Assembly: GCF_001403635.1 (NCBI RefSeq)
Contig: NZ_LN879468.1
Location: forward strand, 992,001 to 1,056,000
Source: Clostridium massiliamazoniense
Lineage (GTDB): Bacteria > Bacillota > Clostridia > Clostridiales > Clostridiaceae
Reading direction: 5' to 3'
Length of the DNA: 64,000 nucleotides
The notes beneath the pieces are model-generated. The model ran no database searches, was not told where the DNA came from, and saw nothing but the letters and a program-made list of their open reading frames with translations. The position numbers were made by a program, and so were the translations under genes. Numbering within the stretch: position 1 is the first letter of the stretch; every line of letters begins with the position of its first letter. Below, one piece after another: positions 2,975-44,268 of the stretch.

Positions 2975-3108
2975 ATAAACCTATACTTAATTCAGGTAGA
3001 GTTTTGACTCCATCTGAATATTTAGTGCTCCTTATCTAGAAACATGAGGCTATTTATCTCCTACTTATAGAAGATAAGAGTATTACACCTCTAGCTATTA
3101 GATAAATT
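2975..3108 (+). repeat. Two-hairpin dispersed element, copy 1
   Basis: Copy 1 of a repeat also found at 6399-6535, 21459-21590 (minus) and 29883-29992. Flanks are ATAAAC (2975-2980) and ATAAATT (3102-3108). Hairpin 1 pairs ATTCAGGTAGA (2990-3000) with TCCATCTGAAT (3009-3019), with one mismatch. After the conserved TTTAGTGCTCCTTATCTAG comes a second, imperfect hairpin from GAGG (3046) to CCTC (3091). It lies in the 400-bp gap between ktrB and rplT, which otherwise holds only the rplT terminator and AT-rich promoter sequence. Confidence 0.75.
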
Positions 3109-3160
3109 CCTTACTTTCTTTCCCCTTTGACTAAAAATAATTATATGTGTAAAAAACTTT

Positions 3161-3190
3161 AAAAAAAAATGCGACTATATAAGTCGCATT
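3161..3190 (-). terminator. Intrinsic terminator after rplT
   Basis: On the minus strand AATGCGACT and AGTCGCATT form a 9-bp stem with a 4-base loop (ATAT), followed by a run of nine T. It ends the infC-rpmI-rplT operon. Confidence 0.9.
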
Positions 3191-3196
3191 AATATA

Positions 3197-3556
3197 TTAA
3201 GCGTTTAATTGCTTTTTAGCTAATTCTACTAAATCAGTGAATGCTTTAGGATCATTTATAGCTATTTCAGAAAGCATTTTTCTGTTTATATCAACACCAG
3301 CTAATTTTAAACCATTCATGAATTTTGAATATGAAAGACCATTCATTCTTGTAGCTGCGTTTATTCTAGCTATCCATAATTTTCTATAATCTCTTTTCTT
3401 TAATCTTCTACCAACATAAGCATTTCTTAATGCTCTGATTACTGACTCATTAGCAGTTTTGAATAATTTGCTTTTTCCGCCATAGTAACCTTTTGCAAGT
3501 TTTAAAACTTTTTTATGATTTTTACGAGCATTTACCGCTCTCTTAACTCTTGCCAT
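3197..3556 (-). CDS. rplT: 50S ribosomal protein L20
   Basis: 119-residue basic ribosomal protein of the large subunit that binds 23S rRNA early in assembly. The conserved beginning [20 protein letters not shown] and the internal [13 protein letters not shown] segment identify it. In Firmicutes L20 also represses its own operon by binding the infC leader, consistent with the leader at 4317-4474. Last gene of infC-rpmI-rplT; terminator directly downstream. Confidence 0.98.
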
Positions 3557-3585
3557 TTTACAGACCTCCTACTCCATCGTTTTTC

Positions 3586-3783
3586 TTATAGATATGGTAA
3601 TAATTTCTTCATTGCTTTTTCTTGTGTAGTTGAAACATATCCAGTTTTTCTAAGATTTCTTTTTCTCTTAGCGCTTTTCTTTGTTAAGATATGGCTTTTG
3701 TAAGCTTTAGCTCTTTTGAACTTTCCTGTTCCTGTTTTTTTAAATCTTTTTGCTGCACCTCTATGAGTTTTCATTTTTGGCAT
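3586..3783 (-). CDS. rpmI: 50S ribosomal protein L35
   Basis: 65-residue very basic large-subunit protein, of the usual length. The typical [20 protein letters not shown] start and the KSHIL...[11 protein letters not shown] core are present. Middle gene of infC-rpmI-rplT; starts 20 bases after the infC stop with an AGGAGGATATC ribosome-binding site. Confidence 0.98.
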
Positions 3784-3803
3784 AGTGATATCCTCCTCTC
3801 AAG

Positions 3804-4316
3804 TTATGCTTTTTTTGGAGCCAAAATCATTATCATGTTTCTGCCTTCCAATTTAGCAGGTTTTTCTATAATACAATGTTCTTCAAGTTTATTGAAGAAT
3901 TTATCAAGTATTACATTTCCAACAGCTGAATGCTCAGCTTCTCTTCCTCTAAATCTAACAGTGATTTTAACTTTATTTCCATCAATTAAGAATTTACGAG
4001 CATTCTTTGCTTTTATATCAATATCATGCTCTTCTATAGTTGGACTAACTCTTATCTCTTTAATATTTATGACTTTCTGCTTTTTCTTAGCTTCTTTGTC
4101 TTTTTTTGTTTGCTCATAAAGAAATTTGCCATAATCCATTATTTTACAAACTGGTGGCTTAGCATTTGGAGAAATCATAACTAGATCAAGGTCTTTCTCC
4201 TCCGCAATTTTTAATGCCTCTTTTGATGACATTAAACCTAATTGCTCACCATCTCCAGAGATAACTCTTATCTCCTTTTCTCTTATTTCTTCATTCATTG
4301 CAATCTTTTTATTAAT
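3804..4316 (-). CDS. infC: Translation initiation factor IF-3 (AUU start codon)
   Basis: IF-3 binds the 30S subunit, prevents 50S joining and enforces start-codon fidelity. N-domain (about residues 1-75) and C-domain (about 85-170) are both complete, with the signature segment [11 protein letters not shown]. An in-frame GTG at 4325 lies within the GGAGGTG ribosome-binding site and cannot be the start. The codon 8 bases after GGAGG is ATT at 4316-4314, giving [12 protein letters not shown] and 170 residues. An AUU start is the well-known self-limiting start of infC in many bacteria. First gene of infC-rpmI-rplT, behind an L20-type leader. Confidence 0.95.
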
Positions 4317-4474
4317 ATCTTTCACCTCCGATAGAATTTAGCCAACACAAATATATAAAAAAAGGACGGCTATAAGCCGTCCTTTTGTTATCACAAACTA
4401 TAAAAAGTGTAATAAACTACTCCAACCTTACTAAGCTTTGCCGTAAGGTGAGAAACGGCTGTTTCTACTTAACA
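4317..4474 (-). promoter_or_regulatory. Ribosomal L20 leader (autoregulatory 5' UTR of infC operon)
   Basis: The transcript from the promoter at 4508-4480 starts near 4473 and has a structured leader. It contains CACCTTACGGCAAAGC...TTAGTAAGG, in which CCTTAC pairs with GTAAGG around a GGCAAAGCTTA loop, and a flanking GAAAC/GTTTC stem. This resembles the L20-binding rRNA mimic of the Firmicute L20 leader family (known from B. subtilis). It is followed by an intrinsic terminator (4386-4355), so control is probably by transcription attenuation when L20 is in excess. Family assignment is from remembered consensus, not a covariance search. Confidence 0.8.
4355..4386 (-). terminator. Attenuator terminator in the infC leader
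   Basis: Minus strand: AAAGGACGGC, loop TTATA, GCCGTCCTTT, then a T run. A strong stem between the L20-binding region and the infC ribosome-binding site; expected to be the conditional terminator of the L20 leader. Confidence 0.9.
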
Positions 4475-4479
4475 AATAT

Positions 4480-4508
4480 AATTTATCACGATTATTCATT
4501 ATTGTCAA
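4480..4508 (-). promoter_or_regulatory. Promoter of infC-rpmI-rplT
   Basis: TTGACA (4508-4503), 17-base spacer, TAAATT (4485-4480) on the minus strand. A good SigA-type promoter placed just before the L20 leader. Confidence 0.8.
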
Positions 4509-4515
4509 TAATTTT

Positions 4516-5403
4516 TTATAAAATTTTTGTACTATTTTCAAATAATACTCTATCTCCAAAAACTGAAGATATAGTATTAAGAAATTCTTTATTTAAACAA
4601 TAATCCTTGTTTATTATGGATATATGTTTTGGCGCATTAGTTATAAGTCCACTAATTATGATATCCTCAGCATTAGCATCCTTACTTTCTTTATTTTCTA
4701 TTAAATCTTTTATAAACTCATCAAATAAGTTTTTTCCATCCTTATCTTCTACTACATATTCACCATTAGGTTTTATAGTTATATTTATAAGATCAATTTT
4801 ACTTTCTTGAATTTCTACAAAATATTTTAGAAGTTTTATAAACTCATTATATTCTTTTTCTACCATATATAATTCTATAATTTTATCAACTATAAATTGA
4901 ACATGATTTCTCATAGATTTTAATCTAAATCTAATAAATCCATCTATATTTATCTTACCTTCTTCAAAAAGAAACTCTTTTATTATATCATTTAAATAAT
5001 TAATTTTATTTTGCAAAGAAATTCCTACATCATCACTTATTTTTTCTTTTCCTAGTAATATTTTGTTTACTTGTGAGTCTATTTCTATTATTTCGTCATG
5101 TCTTAAAAAGAAATAATTTTCTGTTATATATTCTAAAAGTTCTCTTTTTCTATATTCATTAATTATTTCTTTATAAATTAAATTTGCTACATAAGTAAAT
5201 ACTTTATTTTTTATAGTTTCTATATTTTCTGTATTTTTTCCTTCTTCTATATCATTACAAAATATTTTAATGAAGTGAGTATTTTTTTCTATGGACTCTG
5301 ACATCCCTATATTTATACTCTTAGTTTTAAGAATATTTCTTAGTTCTTGTAAATCCTTTACAAAGTCTCTTTCACCTTCAAATGCTACTTGTATTAAAAG
5401 CAA
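4516..5403 (-). CDS. ytxC: YtxC-like putative sporulation protein
   Basis: 295-residue protein resembling the YtxC family (putative sporulation protein), which in Bacillus also lies close to thrS-infC. No membrane segment or catalytic motif is visible; the middle is rich in charged helices (LLEYITENYFFLRHDE, RFRLKSMRNHVQFIVDKI) and a beta-rich tail ends in DRVLFENSTKIL. I prefer the TTG at 5403 (LLLIQVAFEGE), 8 bases after GGAG; the in-frame GTG at 5412 overlaps the ribosome-binding site. It ends immediately upstream of the infC promoter. Function unknown; family assignment is by recognition. Confidence 0.7.
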   Translation of the reverse strand: MLLIQVAFEGERDFVKDLQELRNILKTKSINIGMSESIEKNTHFIKIFCNDIEEGKNTENIETIKNKVFTYVANLIYKEIINEYRKRELLEYITENYFFLRHDEIIEIDSQVNKILLGKEKISDDVGISLQNKINYLNDIIKEFLFEEGKINIDGFIRFRLKSMRNHVQFIVDKIIELYMVEKEYNEFIKLLKYFVEIQESKIDLINITIKPNGEYVVEDKDGKNLFDEFIKDLIENKESKDANAEDIIISGLITNAPKHISIINKDYCLNKEFLNTISSVFGDRVLFENSTKIL

Positions 5404-5535
5404 ATTTCTCACTCCTTTCTTTATACTTAGTATGGATTAAAACAGCACTGCTATACGAAAAAAAACTAGTGAATAATCGACAAATTCCTCATTATTTAGT
5501 AAGATGTTTTTAAAGAAAATTAAAGGAGAATCCAT

Positions 5536-6234
5536 ATGAATATTTCTTTTGTAGATTATAGATTAACAGAAAAACAAATAAACCTCTTATTAGATGAAGG
5601 TTTAAACATAATTAAGGTTCCTAAATCAAATAATTTATATGATGCTATTTCAGGTCATCCTGATATCCAACTAAATATTATTAATTCAAAAAAAATAATT
5701 TTAGCAAAAAACTCTAATCTTTCCTTAGAAACACTAAATCAATATAATATAGATTTTGAATATTCTTCTAAAGAATTAGAGGAAAAATATCCTAAAAATA
5801 TTTTTTTAAATGCTGTTAATTTAAAAGATTTTTTTATACATAATTTTAAATTTACAGATAAAAATTTATTAAAACATGTTTCTGACAAAGAGCTAATAAA
5901 TATAAAACAAGGTTATAGCAAATGTTCCATAGCTATAGTTAATGATAAAGCTTTAATAACCTCAGATTTAGGAATTTACAATACCTTAAAGAAATACCCT
6001 TTAGACGTACTACTAATTCCTTCTGGTGATATAATACTTCCTGGATTATCTTATGGATTTATTGGTGGAACCTGTGGATTAATTTCTGAGGACAAAATGG
6101 CCTTTTTAGGTGACTTAAAAAACCATTCTTATGGAAATGATATAAAAGACTTCCTTTTTAAACACAATGTTGAACCAATATATCTAGATGAAGGAAAATT
6201 AATTGATAGAGGAAGCATTCTTACTTTATTTTAA
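5536..6234 (+). CDS. DUF6873-like GME-fold protein
   Basis: 232-residue soluble protein with AAAGGAG 7 bases before the ATG. The repeated pattern (SKCSIAIVNDKALITSDLGI, then DVLLIPSGDIILPGLSYGFIGGTCG, then KMAFLGDLKNHSYG) resembles guanidine-modifying-enzyme fold proteins related to dimethylargininase and agmatine deiminase. I recognise it as the DUF6873 type. A cysteine occurs in GGTCGL, but I cannot say it is the catalytic Cys of the enzymatic families. It stands alone on the plus strand; the gene has no clear partners. Confidence 0.6.
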   Translation: MNISFVDYRLTEKQINLLLDEGLNIIKVPKSNNLYDAISGHPDIQLNIINSKKIILAKNSNLSLETLNQYNIDFEYSSKELEEKYPKNIFLNAVNLKDFFIHNFKFTDKNLLKHVSDKELINIKQGYSKCSIAIVNDKALITSDLGIYNTLKKYPLDVLLIPSGDIILPGLSYGFIGGTCGLISEDKMAFLGDLKNHSYGNDIKDFLFKHNVEPIYLDEGKLIDRGSILTLF

Positions 6235-6307
6235 GCTTTAATATATTTTACTCTCTGATTAGCATAAATGTTAATGAATTAGCATATAAATATAAACTAA
6301 AAAAATA

Positions 6308-6380
6308 AGAGATTGTATTAAATCAACCTCTAAAATAGTTATATAACTAAAAAAAACAGGTGCTGTATCAAATCAACACC
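6308..6380 (+). repeat. Tandem short hairpins related to the GTATCAAA repeat
   Basis: Two similar hairpins follow each other 3' of the GME-fold gene: GAG-ATTGTATTAAATCAA-CCTC (6308-6331) and GGTG-CTGTATCAAATCAA-CACC (6359-6380). They share a TGTAT(T/C)AAATCAAC core. Between them an A-rich tract contains a TAGTTATATAACTA palindrome. The second is the left end of the composite repeat described next. Confidence 0.6.
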
Positions 6381-6398
6381 TTAATTTATATTACTTTC

Positions 6399-6535
6399 AT
6401 AAACGTAGACTTAATTCAGGTGGAGTTTTGATTCCATCTGAATGCTTAGTCGCAGTTATCTAGAAGCGTGAGGCTGTTTATCTCCTACTTAAAAAAGATA
6501 GGAGTATTACAGCCTCTAGCTATCAGATAAATGTA
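6399..6535 (+). repeat. Two-hairpin dispersed element, copy 2, with 9-bp direct repeats
   Basis: Flanked by ATAAACGTA (6399-6407) and ATAAATGTA (6527-6535). Hairpin 1 is ATTCAGGTGGA (6414-6424) with TCCATCTGAAT (6433-6443), 11 bp including one G-U. Then TTAGTCGCAGTTATCTAG, then hairpin 2 with outer arms GAGGCTGT (6470-6477) and ACAGCCTC (6509-6516), and inner arms CTCCTA / TAGGAG. The right end reads CTAGCTATCAGATAAA. The core is 119 bp and carries no ORF. Confidence 0.75.
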
Positions 6536-6553
6536 TTTTTTCATCTGCCGAGA

Positions 6554-6809
6554 TAGCTATATAGGTACAAAATGCTGTGAACATTGAACTAGTACTAGAA
6601 GCTCTTTATTTTTGAACAATAGTTTCGTAAGTTCCCTTTTAAAAGAAGCTCAGTGCTAAATGCACTGAGTAACTTTCAGTTACCAAATCACAGATTTGGA
6701 CTGTCAGTCAAACAAAGTGAGTTTGGAAATTTTAGAAACTGTTGTAGAAAAAAATATTAGAGCTTCTTTACGTAGATGAGTGGTCACAAATGATGAACCT
6801 ATGTAGCTA
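6554..6809 (+). mobile_element. 256-bp multi-hairpin element with 13-bp inverted ends
   Basis: Ends TAGCTATATAGGT (6554-6566) and ACCTATGTAGCTA (6797-6809) pair over 13 positions with one G-U. Inside are nested stems: TGTGA/TCACA (6576-6580/6784-6788), AGAAGCTCT/AGAGCTTCT (6597-6605/6759-6767) and AACAATAGTTTC/GAAACTGTTGT (6615-6626/6735-6745). In the centre five small hairpins follow one another: CTCAGTGC/GCACTGAG, GTAACT/AGTTAC, CCAAATC/GATTTGG, GACT/AGTC and CAAAC/GTTTG (6649-6725). The G-U pairs are wobble only if the plus strand is the RNA. Either a structured non-coding RNA or a hairpin-rich MITE. Confidence 0.7.
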
Positions 6810-6821
6810 GATAAAAGGTAA

Positions 6822-6858
6822 AGGGGATGTATCTGTATTTGATACATCCCCTTTGAAT
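6822..6858 (-). terminator. GATGTATC-type hairpin after the chemoreceptor gene
   Basis: GGGGATGTATC / GATACATCCCC (11-bp stem, loop about 7) directly after the MCP stop on the minus strand. A member of the dispersed hairpin family also at 11.88, 20.85, 44.2, 45.07, 50.34, 53.87 and 54.57 kb. The T run is weak. Confidence 0.7.
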
Positions 6859-8843
6859 TATATTCTAAATTTATTTGTTAAATCTCTTAGTTTACTACTT
6901 TCCTCAAGCATTGTAGTAGAACTTGCTGTAAGTTCCTCTACACCTGCTAATTGCATTTCTAATAAGGATGAAACCTCTGACATTTCACTAGCAATTTCAT
7001 TTGATGTAGCTGCTGTATTTATAGAACTTTCTGATATTTTTTCTGTTTTTTCACTTGAATTATTTATCTTATCTATTATTAATTCTGTTCTACTTATAGA
7101 AGTCATAAAACTATTTGAAAGATTTTCAAAAGTTTTTCTAGTATTTTCTATTCTAGATAAACCATCTTCTACAATAGTCTTACTTCCCGTAACTTCGCTT
7201 AATAATACCTTTAATTCACTTTCATTTTCTCTTAAAATACTTCCAGTTTTAATAGCTGATTCCTTACAACTATCTGCTAGTTTTTTAATTTCATTAGCTA
7301 CAACAGCAAATCCTCTTCCTGATTCTCCAGCTCTAGCTGCTTCTATACTAGCATTAAGTGATAAAAGATTTGTTTGTTCTGCAATGAAAGTTATATCTTC
7401 TAAAATATCTCTTATCTTAACAAAACTTTCTTGTAAAGATAACATACATTCTCCAACTTTAAATGTCCTTTCTTTAATATCACTTATTACCATAATAGCA
7501 TTATTCATTGCTTCTCCACCATTTTCAATTTCTGATGAAGCTTCCTTACTATGTTCCTTTAATCCATTTGCATTTTCTCTTATTTGACTCATATTGTCAT
7601 TCAATTCCATTATTGCACTATTTAAAATTCCTATACCTTTTGAACCACTTTCTACTTTTTCCCCTACTTTTATAGTAATTTCAGTTATATTACTTGCACT
7701 TTCAGTATTGCTTTCTATAGTTTCTTGGAATTGTTCCATACTCATTATAGTTTCTTTAGTACTCGTATCTATAGCTTCTATAATATCCTTTAAATTTTCT
7801 GCCATAATTAAGAAATTATTTTCTAAAACTCCAAGTTCATCTTCTCTATTACTTTTAGATAAATTTAATACTGCTAAATTACCTTCTGCTATTTTTTTAC
7901 TTTCATTAGCTATTTTATTTATTCCTTTTGTTATATTATTTATTGATATATATATTATATAACTTAATAATATAAGAGCTACAATAACTATTATTATTGT
8001 CATGTATTTTATAGTTGTTAATGGTCCAAAAAATTCTCCCTCAGCTGCATATAGTACTGCTACTAAATTTGTTCCTTCTATTACTGCTGAAGCATACAAT
8101 TGATTATTACCATTTACATGGAACTTAGTTATTTTTCTATCTCCTGCTGTTAATGGATCACCTAACTCTGCAACTGCTCCATTATCAACAGTTCTTATAT
8201 TCTCAGTTATCTTTCTTGAAGGATGTATTGCATAGTTTCCATCCTTATCAATAACGAATCCATGACCTGTTTCTGCTATTTTTATACTTGTAGAAATTTC
8301 TTTTAATTTATCTAAATTTACAATACCACCTATATATCCATTAGGAATCTTCATAGCTACTACTATTCCATTTTCCTCTCCAGTCATAGGATAAACCTTA
8401 GAAACAACTTTTTCTAATTCCTTTTTTCCTTTTAAATTCTCAAACCATTTTTCATTTTCAAAATTCACTTTATTCCCATAAATAGTGTTATTGCTATCTA
8501 TAAAGAAAAGACCTTTTATGTACTGATTATTTGAATAATTATTCATATCTTGTGCTATATTTACAGTTATCTCTTCTAAAGTTTTTCCATAAGCATTTTT
8601 ATAATAAATAGAATCTAAATATTCCTTACTATGACTTATAAAGTTCGACATTTGCATTTCATAATCAGCTAACACATAATTAATTTCGTCATTTATATTA
8701 TTCTCAATAATATTCTTTGATAAATAATAACTCCCTCCTCCTATAATTATCATGCTTACTATACAAATTGATAATATATTTGTAAGCATTTTGAACCTTA
8801 AGGATTTTTTGTAGTTCTTGAAATAATCTAATCTTATTTTCAT
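6858..8843 (-). CDS. Methyl-accepting chemotaxis protein
   Basis: 661-residue membrane chemoreceptor. Two transmembrane helices (about residues 19-45 and 278-302) bracket an extracellular Cache-type sensor that includes [22 protein letters not shown] domain (about 303-355) and the MCP signalling domain follow, with the hairpin tip [19 protein letters not shown]...GRGFAVVA. The C-terminus has no CheR-binding pentapeptide. The ATG at 8843 has only a distant AAAGGGG. Monocistronic, flanked by terminators; ligand unknown. C. perfringens lacks flagella but has such receptors, so it may serve type IV pilus motility or another output (inference). Confidence 0.93.
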
Positions 8844-11787: not shown

Positions 11788-11907
11788 GAGCTGTATTAAA
11801 TCAGCATCTTAATTTATATTACTTTTATAAATGTATTTTTTTCATCTGCCGAGATAACTAGCTAAAAAGCAGAAAGGATGTATCTGCAATTTGATACATC
11901 CTCAATT
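11788..11907. mobile_element. MITE-like repeat, uninterrupted copy
   Basis: A 119-bp unit with imperfect inverted ends: GGAGCTGTATTAAAT at the left and ATTTGATACATCCTC at the right. It shares the blocks TTAATTTATATTACTTT, ATAAATGTATTTTTT and CATCTGCCGAGATA with the composite locus at 6358-6856. The right 35 bp also act as a terminator hairpin (GGATGTATC/GATACATCC, 11876-11905) for the minus-strand 1074-residue gene. Just left of it, 11731-11747 (TTTATCTGATAGCTAGA) repeats the inverted right end of the two-hairpin element. The remainder of 11649-11787 shows nothing else. Confidence 0.6.
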
Positions 11908-20831: not shown

Positions 20832-20847
20832 ATAAAATTTAATTACA

Positions 20848-20895
20848 CAAGGGGATGTATCAAATTACAGATACATCCTCTCTGCTTTTTCTCTA
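20848..20895 (+). terminator. GATGTATC-type terminator after dapB, shared with cobO
   Basis: GGGGATGTATC ... GATACATCCTC followed by CTGCTTTTTCTC on the plus strand. The same 50-bp sequence including the CTAGCTATA tail recurs at 44203-44250. Between convergent dapB and cobO it may act in both directions. Confidence 0.8.
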
Positions 20896-20911
20896 GCTAT
20901 ACATTGACAAA

Positions 20912-21458: not shown

Positions 21459-21590
21459 TTTATCTCATAACTAAAGGCTGTAACACTCCTATCCTCCATA
21501 AGTTTAGGATGAATAGACACAACCTCCTAGTTAACTTTCACTAAAATTTAGTTAAAGTAAAAACTTTATCTAAATTAAGTTTCAGTTTAT
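21459..21590 (-). repeat. Two-hairpin dispersed element, copy 3
   Basis: On the minus strand: ATAAAC, ACTTAATTTAG, hairpin 1 (ATTTAG...CTAAAT), TTTAGTGAAAGTTAACTAG, hairpin 2 with arms AGGTTGT / ACAGCCT and inner CATCC / GGATA, then TTTAGTTATGAGATAAA. Relative to copy 2, ATTCAG/CTGAAT has become ATTTAG/CTAAAT: both sides of the stem changed together. It ends about 20 bases before the cobO start, so it is part of the likely cobO 5' UTR. A weaker hairpin-1 relic lies at 21695-21750 on the same strand. Nothing else in 21440-21816. Confidence 0.7.
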
Positions 21591-29823: not shown

Positions 29824-29882
29824 CTATAATTCCTCCTCTTATTTCTCTTATATCTAGAAGATATAATGTTTTTCTTGTAAAG

Positions 29883-29992
29883 TTCCACTTAATTTATATA
29901 GAGCTTTAACTCTATATGAAATTTAGTTGAAGTTATCTATTGATGTGTGCCTGTTACTTTTAATTTATAAAAGATTGAAATGCTACAGGCTA
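29883..29992 (+). repeat. Two-hairpin dispersed element, copy 4 (inside the valS leader region)
   Basis: Plus strand: ACTTAATTTATATAGAG, loop CTTTAA, CTCTATATGAAAT (hairpin 1, 9 bp perfect), TTTAGTTGAAGTTATCTA, then GCCTGT (29949-) ... ACAGGC (-29990) enclosing ACTTTTA/TAAAAGAT. Both stems differ in sequence from copies 1-3 but keep pairing. It lies antisense, between the T-box terminator and valS, so it would be transcribed in the reverse orientation as part of the long valS leader. Confidence 0.65.
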
Positions 29993-30096
29993 CAGCAATG
30001 AAATATTTAATAGAATAATTTTGAACAAAATTTTCATCCTTATTCTCATTTAACTTACTTAATGTGATACTTTATTTTGCTCAATAAAAGCTTTAA

Positions 30097-35503: not shown

Positions 35504-35510
35504 TGAGATA

Positions 35511-35572
35511 AAAAAGCTCTAATATTTCTATTGCAAAAATTGCTCAGAAATAAAGAGCTTTTATTTTTTATC
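35511..35572. terminator. Bidirectional terminator after the kinase relic
   Basis: AAAAGCTCT ... AGAGCTTTT outer stem, ATTTCT/AGAAAT inner stem, A run and T run on either side; shared with hppA on the minus strand. Confidence 0.85.
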
Positions 35573-44195: not shown

Positions 44196-44202
44196 AAAGC
44201 AG

Positions 44203-44250
44203 AGGATGTATCAAATTACAGATACATCCTCTATGTCTTTTATCTAGCTA
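44203..44250. terminator. GATGTATC-type terminator after ldh and exoA
   Basis: GAGGATGTATC ... GATACATCCTC then TATGTCTTTTATCTAGCTA. Nearly the same 50 bp as at 20848-20895, including the TAGCTAT tail. Between convergent ldh and exonuclease III. Confidence 0.8.
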
Positions 44251-44268
44251 TATAAAACATCTACTTTC

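Follow-up and report, generated by a model that had tools for sequence, protein, structure and literature searches.

A long palindromic element near the 3' ends of clostridial genes, probably a copy of a MITE-like DNA repeat

The 64,000-nucleotide stretch of DNA analyzed here (the window) contains a 256-base palindrome, element C, that is probably a copy of a non-autonomous, MITE-like DNA repeat of the Clostridiaceae, built as a long palindrome and located at gene 3' ends. The initial annotation of this DNA had proposed either a structured ncRNA or a hairpin MITE. The second identity is now the better supported, on account of dispersed non-coding copies, sharp limits of 233 bp in one clade, copies of identical score in genome G072, and loci that lack the element. 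The first is, as such, not supported, given the lack of a G.U/A.C strand preference, of an Rfam family at threshold, and of promoter-like matches above chance.

Element C is the place of lowest energy among 498 windows of 256 nt sampled on the + strand in 128-nt steps, the best of which starts at 6529. Folded as + strand RNA, it reaches -95 kcal/mol, and none of 200 shuffled sequences was as stable; the - strand folds to -79.1 kcal/mol (z -7.51). The overall shape is a single long imperfect hairpin (Table 1). Its limits and 13-bp inverted ends hold as first described, the ends TAGCTATATAGGT and ACCTATGTAGCTA pairing by Watson–Crick rules at 12 of 13 positions, plus one T/G. Two internal stems reported with them were likewise found in place: AGAAGCTCT/AGAGCTTCT (6597-6605/6759-6767) pairs perfectly, and the stem 6615-6626/6735-6745 holds one wobble and one unpaired base. 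The stretch had also been called non-coding, and no ORF of at least 80 aa overlaps 6554-6809. The window copy is short and, at that ORF length, without coding capacity, as expected of a MITE, and terminal inverted repeats, a further MITE character, are present both in it and in the copies of the clade G101-G151.

Table 1. Element C, its parts, and neighboring or related features in the window.
Feature	Position	Strand	Evidence
Whole palindromic element C	6554..6809	+	Fold z -10.61; R1 match 6566-6794, 110.9 bits (the window copy is 1 of the 6 rows from which the R1 covariance model was built)
Left end, outer inverted repeat	6554..6566	+	Pairing with right end
Right end, outer inverted repeat	6797..6809	+	Pairing with left end
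Conserved left arm TTGAACTAGTACTAGAAGCTCTTTATTTTTGA	6584..6615	+	84-88% identity to C. thermopalmarium copies over 31-33 bases
Conserved right arm, includes AAATATTAGAGCTTCTTTACGTAG	6716..6775	+	71-77% identity to C. thermopalmarium copies over 58-77 bases
Presumed apical hairpin of the family AAACAAAGTGAGTTTGG	6710..6726	+	By-eye comparison with GAACGACAGTGAGTTTAGAA of other copies
Small repeat that appears to be nested close to the apex	6649..6712	+	Limits by eye
Miniature relative, arms only	35510..35565	-	R1 match E 1.2e-4; between two converging ORFs
Related unit without element C	11843..11867	+	Site comparison
Element A, adjacent different dispersed hairpin repeat	6409..6532	+	Other window copies; absent at 11.8 kb
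Element A, other window copies	2975-3107; 21459-21590; 29878-30005	+; -; +	Sequence matches
Terminator-like hairpin GGGGATGTATC/GATACATCCCC	6819..6855	both	Adjoins receptor stop codon
Two terminator-like hairpins with long T tails	6308..6381	-	Receptor gene's sense strand, beyond elements C and A

Relatives of element C are numerous. A plain BLAST of five genomes, with 6390-6860 as the query, matched both arms in C. thermopalmarium, in the same order and orientation as in the window. The covariance model R1 combines the window copy with five from C. thermopalmarium, and with it the search for homologues that the initial annotation had recommended gave related copies in 57 of 206 Clostridiaceae genomes (E <= 1e-3). 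Across the order, 62 of 225 genomes had matches at E <= 1e-5, six of the 62 being new to that search. The 149 Clostridiaceae genomes without a match are harder negatives than a set of 39 other genomes, none of which matched R1 at E <= 0.01: most of the 39 are less AT-rich, one (Youngiibacter) belongs to the family set, and they are an easy control that mostly yielded 73-2535 first-look candidates, compared with ~3,000-6,600 in copy-rich Clostridiaceae.

Copy numbers per genome, which are lower bounds, show the dispersed, multi-copy distribution of a MITE in the relatives. A deeper R1 search gave at least 21 matches in G149 and at least 20 in G134 (E <= 1e-3), and C. zeae (G017) has at least 55 (E <= 0.01). 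Among seven genomes near the window by DUF6873 identity, G129 has at least 12 matches, G099 has three weak ones (E 0.004-0.03), and the other five have none (E <= 0.1). In G072, 5 of 14 listed copies have the identical score of 120.8 bits and lie on different contigs in different surroundings. The window itself holds one full copy and one miniature by R1 search. Plasmids gave no match to the window query and three family queries, nor did phages to the window query and one family query. An initial scan of genomes, with the DUF6873 protein as query, returned no relative. As for the host, the IF-3 protein of the window is 77% identical to that of C. intestinale and 73% to that of C. thermopalmarium, the best among the matches listed, which puts the window within Clostridium or close to it; there may be named relatives that are nearer still.

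The two arms have changed together. The covariation that was to be checked is abundant in a 36-row alignment (A3; 34 sense rows and two antisense hits of the same palindromes, fitted to the model): pairing holds in 95.9% of cells, both sides have changed in 41 of 45 pairs, and the 375 cells with both-side changes were equaled in none of 500 shuffles. Covariation of this kind is normally read as evidence for RNA, but here few changes pass through G.U. An RNA reading drawn from this covariation alone was dropped after G.U was compared with A.C among the opposed bases of the two arms, scored symmetrically. Across 86 unique copies, G.U occurred 142 times (2.1% of opposed bases) and A.C 124 times (1.8%), G.U outnumbering A.C in 40 copies and A.C outnumbering G.U in 26 (p 0.11); in a set of 41 copies, the counts were 69 and 75. 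Neither set has a strand-specific excess of G.U over A.C. Because RNA selection on one strand should favor one mismatch class, and the two are about equally frequent, we infer that complementarity is kept at the DNA level.

Other observations on the same copies concern a single strand. Two alignment columns retain G.U in 29 and 21 of 36 rows, and conserved mismatches shared in this way could point to one strand being active, as RNA or as DNA. In 84 of 92 copies it is the + strand that folds more stably, with a mean advantage of 8.2 kcal/mol. This bias, together with the kept G.U columns, might fit a single-strand role and so counts against the DNA-repeat reading. A rather unlikely explanation that draws on it is that the element is a domesticated 3' UTR RNA that stabilizes, processes, or terminates the mRNA of its neighbor and whose pairing is kept by RNA selection. 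Covariation reached by none of the shuffles would agree with such an element, as would the better folding of one strand, yet the + strand is antisense to the right-hand gene. Moreover, G.U does not exceed A.C in either direction. For comparison, G.U makes up 10/56 pairs in a T-box of the window, 4/27, 6/29, and 2/19 in tRNAs, and 2/39 in the L20 leader, all known RNAs, i.e., 11-21% for the T-box and tRNAs and 5% for the L20 leader, obtained by minimum-energy folding, a different measure from the arm count.

Rfam also bears against the 3' UTR RNA element. Over element C, no family matched at gathering level. At E up to 10, the interval 6230-6870 had below-threshold matches only, such as rliA with 14.8 bits against a threshold of 50, the best being mir-873 with 26.1 against 95, which lies on element A; in 12 loci with related copies, no family reached threshold. 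The very stable fold of element C would also suit a small RNA gene standing alone and transcribed from a promoter of its own. This we consider very improbable, as promoter-like matches are at chance level, and the copies are dispersed, tied to gene ends, and free of wobble bias.

The position of the copies is far from random. We scored 92 copies, which are those at hand and not a random sample, some of them orthologous, with ORFs called by a simple script (60-100 aa minimum) and not by a gene finder. A right-hand ORF was present in 87 (5 copies had none, and 30 lacked a left-hand ORF, mostly because short flanks had been fetched), and its stop codon faces the element in 75, the remaining 12 having the opposite orientation; a set of 39 copies gave 34 facing stops. 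The 75 genes fall into 65 distinct clusters (sign test p 3e-12, or 6e-10 by clusters), and the median distance from facing stop to model end is 55 nt. Even between converging genes, the right-hand stop is nearer in 26 of 37 copies and farther in 11 (medians of 48 nt on the right and 169 nt on the left; Wilcoxon p 7e-4). By eye, the stop codon lies within ~3 nt of the element end in 4 of 7 C. thermopalmarium copies and in ~7 of 13 G072 copies.

That the element truncates genes and supplies their stop codon was considered and dropped, since the C-terminal residues of DUF6873 agree among genomes: by eye, they are the same in G141 and G101 (with the element), G065 (without it), and G087 (with a relic). 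Along the same lines, three right-side neighbors, dihydrofolate reductase (DHFR), an ABC-F C-terminal domain protein, and SelB, align with their Pfam profiles through to the C-terminus, and these genes are therefore not cut short. We also note that DUF6873 is directly followed by the element, or by the relic in G087, in several relatives (L136, L147, L237, and L240).

Ordinary terminators are scarce between these stops and the element. Among the 69 of 75 facing-stop genes with a stop no more than 130 nt from the element, 4 have a terminator-like hairpin in between, compared with 17.5 expected from a baseline of 73 gene ends in the window and five Clostridium loci, a small mixed set. There, 29 of 73 ends have a terminator within 130 nt and 40 of 73 within 250 nt (12 and 16 of 24, respectively, for converging genes only). 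The window copy is one of the four exceptions, as the receptor gene to its right has a terminator-like hairpin before the element. Up to 250 nt beyond the element, a terminator was found on the gene strand in 18 of 69 cases, on the other strand in 17, and in shuffled sequence in 5.

Because position and orientation are so strongly non-random, the element may act at the 3' terminus of the neighboring gene's mRNA. Stop-codon adjacency, orientation bias, the few terminators before the element (4/69), and internal motifs common to several clades would all suit the domesticated 3' UTR RNA element described above. The MITE-like DNA repeat that we prefer would account for the same facts if copies spread as DNA, with either hairpin-templated repair or the recognition of a hairpin in single-stranded or cruciform DNA keeping their arms complementary. 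The mRNA of the adjacent gene would end in the hairpin or run through it, the hairpin would often occupy the place of the gene's intrinsic terminator, and insertions at gene 3' ends in one orientation would persist owing to this role at the mRNA end. Only tentatively do we put forward a further-reaching account, in which a clostridial repeat is directed to stop codons, or survives there, in a single orientation and replaces intrinsic terminators, while a DNA mechanism keeps its arms complementary. If it were true, tens of genes per copy-rich genome, including housekeeping genes such as those for dihydrofolate reductase and selB, would end in a shared mobile hairpin. Several observations count against the MITE-like repeat that we prefer: no autonomous partner was seen, the 233-bp copies show no target duplication by eye, some copies are old, 12 of 87 have the other orientation, terminators lie beyond the element in 18 of 69 cases and before it in the window copy, and plasmids and phages gave no match.

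Copies differ between clades in their outer parts. Copies of the clade G101-G151 are sharply delimited at 233 bp, with the ends TTTTTCTTAGATTATGCTA/TAGCATAATCTAAGAAAAA. C. thermopalmarium, G072/G091, and G129 have a common core and different outer arms; that clades share the core rather than the ends, unlike a usual MITE, is a point against the MITE reading. No target-site duplication was seen by eye in the 233-bp copies, and one of TA or TAGCTA is possible at the window site. Some copies are old and common to more than one species, and relics consisting of the tips only occur in G149, G065, and G087. Long palindromes are expected to lose their middle in replication, an expectation that the tip-only relics fit. 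Two loci (L241 and L242, in G123 and G134) have a full copy immediately after a partial one, the same locus in G065 having the tips only. Most copies at the G072/G091 loci L158-L177 and at L106 of G102 have another conserved hairpin module, resembling TTTTCCGTAAC...GGAGGAAAATCCTCCTTTAGTAGG, at the element's far side.

The conserved mismatches within an otherwise near-perfect palindrome and the DNA-level pairing would also suit a single-stranded DNA repeat moved by an HUH (Y1) enzyme, similar to a giant REP or an element derived from IS200/IS605 and recognized by those mismatches. One clade without a clear target duplication and copies skewed to one strand along contigs would agree with this explanation, which we consider quite unlikely. 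The skew may merely track gene orientation, and at 170-250 bp the element is far above REP units, given as 20-40 bp in PMC3733652. Regarding the skew itself, C. zeae G017 has 13 copies on + and 2 on - in C1, and 15 on + and 2 on - in C2. Of the copies detected, 19 of 21 in G149 and 20 of 20 in G134 are on one and the same replichore, taking dnaA as the origin, assuming the terminus to be opposite, and comparing positions by hand. A replication-strand mechanism was set aside, as it is inseparable from gene orientation.

Several known repeats resemble the MITE-like repeat preferred here. Among these, Efa-1 and EFAR are the same family. MITE-like palindromes beside genes are an established kind, represented by ERIC, EFAR, Bcr1, NEMIS, and RUP in PMC3733652, PMC2229807, and PMC10969869, the first of which counts EFAR among MITEs. 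ERIC, or IRU, of the Enterobacteriaceae is a 127-bp, high-copy, mostly intergenic element with base-paired ends that, at gene 3' ends, changes the stability of transcripts, with an effect that depends on its orientation (PMC2229807 and PMC10969869). Compared by description, it differs from element C in its phylum, its TA ends, and its target duplication, which for element C is no more than a possibility, at the window site. Efa-1 of Enterococcus (163-nt model, 65 matches) is likewise intergenic and strongly folding, but, judged by its description in PMC2267715, its predicted form is two adjacent stem-loops instead of one long hairpin. Bcr1, a Firmicute intergenic repeat of 147-167 nt with mobile-element traits (PMC2267715), is, by description, set apart as specific to the Bacillus cereus group, as the title of its paper says. 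QMITE2 of Coxiella resides primarily in the 3' untranslated regions of ORFs (PMC10969869) and is distinguished, again by description, by its GTAG-type REP. Closest in host are Clop-1 of C. perfringens and Clot-1 of C. tetani, clostridial intergenic stem-loop repeats whose models, at 93 and 74 nt, are shorter, which sets them apart by description (PMC2267715).

No description of the element C family was found among the titles and abstracts listed from the open-licence literature, nor, apart from these shorter stem-loop families of PMC2267715, one of a repeat of this size in the group, and the available part of the MITE review contains no word starting with 'clostridi'. The family adds a broad repeat to the clostridia, for which few repeats of such length seem to have been described. 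It also offers two natural tests: how the arms of long palindromes stay complementary when no wobble intermediates occur, and whether gene 3' ends can be taken over by mobile DNA.

In the window, element C is flanked by DUF6873 (5536-6234 +) and by a methyl-accepting chemotaxis receptor gene (6858-8843 -). The initial annotation had found it missing from a related unit at 11.8 kb and suggested a separate insertion. The absence is borne out by comparison of the two sites: the 11.8-kb unit has the flanking pieces, lacks both element A and element C, and reads GAGATAACTAGCTAAAAAG, while the occupied site reads GAGATA[GCTATATAGG...CCTATG]TAGCTAGATAAAAG. An insertion fits this comparison, and other loci without the element exist; as far as the letters of the site go, they are consistent with one that duplicated TA or TAGCTA. 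In G023, converging DUF6873 and receptor genes are 178 nt apart, versus 623 nt in the window, and their spacer has no R1 match; the two receptors are 54% identical across 422 residues.

The region around 6554-6809 is a mosaic of repeats. Element A, next to element C, has matches in 42 of 206 Clostridiaceae genomes (E <= 1e-5); it measures ~120 bp, has compensatory differences between copies by eye, and is bordered in the window by ATAAACGTA and ATAAATGTA, which may form a direct repeat of 9 bp. Within element C, the interval 6665-6712 matches two C. vincentii sites at 81%; both are situated between tRNA genes and lack an R1 match even at E values as high as 1, and so most of the five small hairpins of element C probably derive from a nested small repeat. 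A small repeat with a CCAAATC(N)2AGATTTGG hairpin was seen at L096, L097, L117, and window positions 6683-6699; at L096, in C. vincentii, it sits within a tandem tRNA gene array.

Hairpins related to that at 6819-6855 recur at 11.8, 20.8, and 44.2 kb (11855-11905, 20833-20899, and 44201-44254). Because sequence similar to this terminator-like hairpin, GGATGTATC/GATACATCC, makes up the outer arms of the palindromic element in G129, the recurrent hairpin may be an internal-deletion relic of the palindromic element. The hairpin at 6819-6855 and its relatives are preceded by a leader like TAGCTAGATAAAAG.
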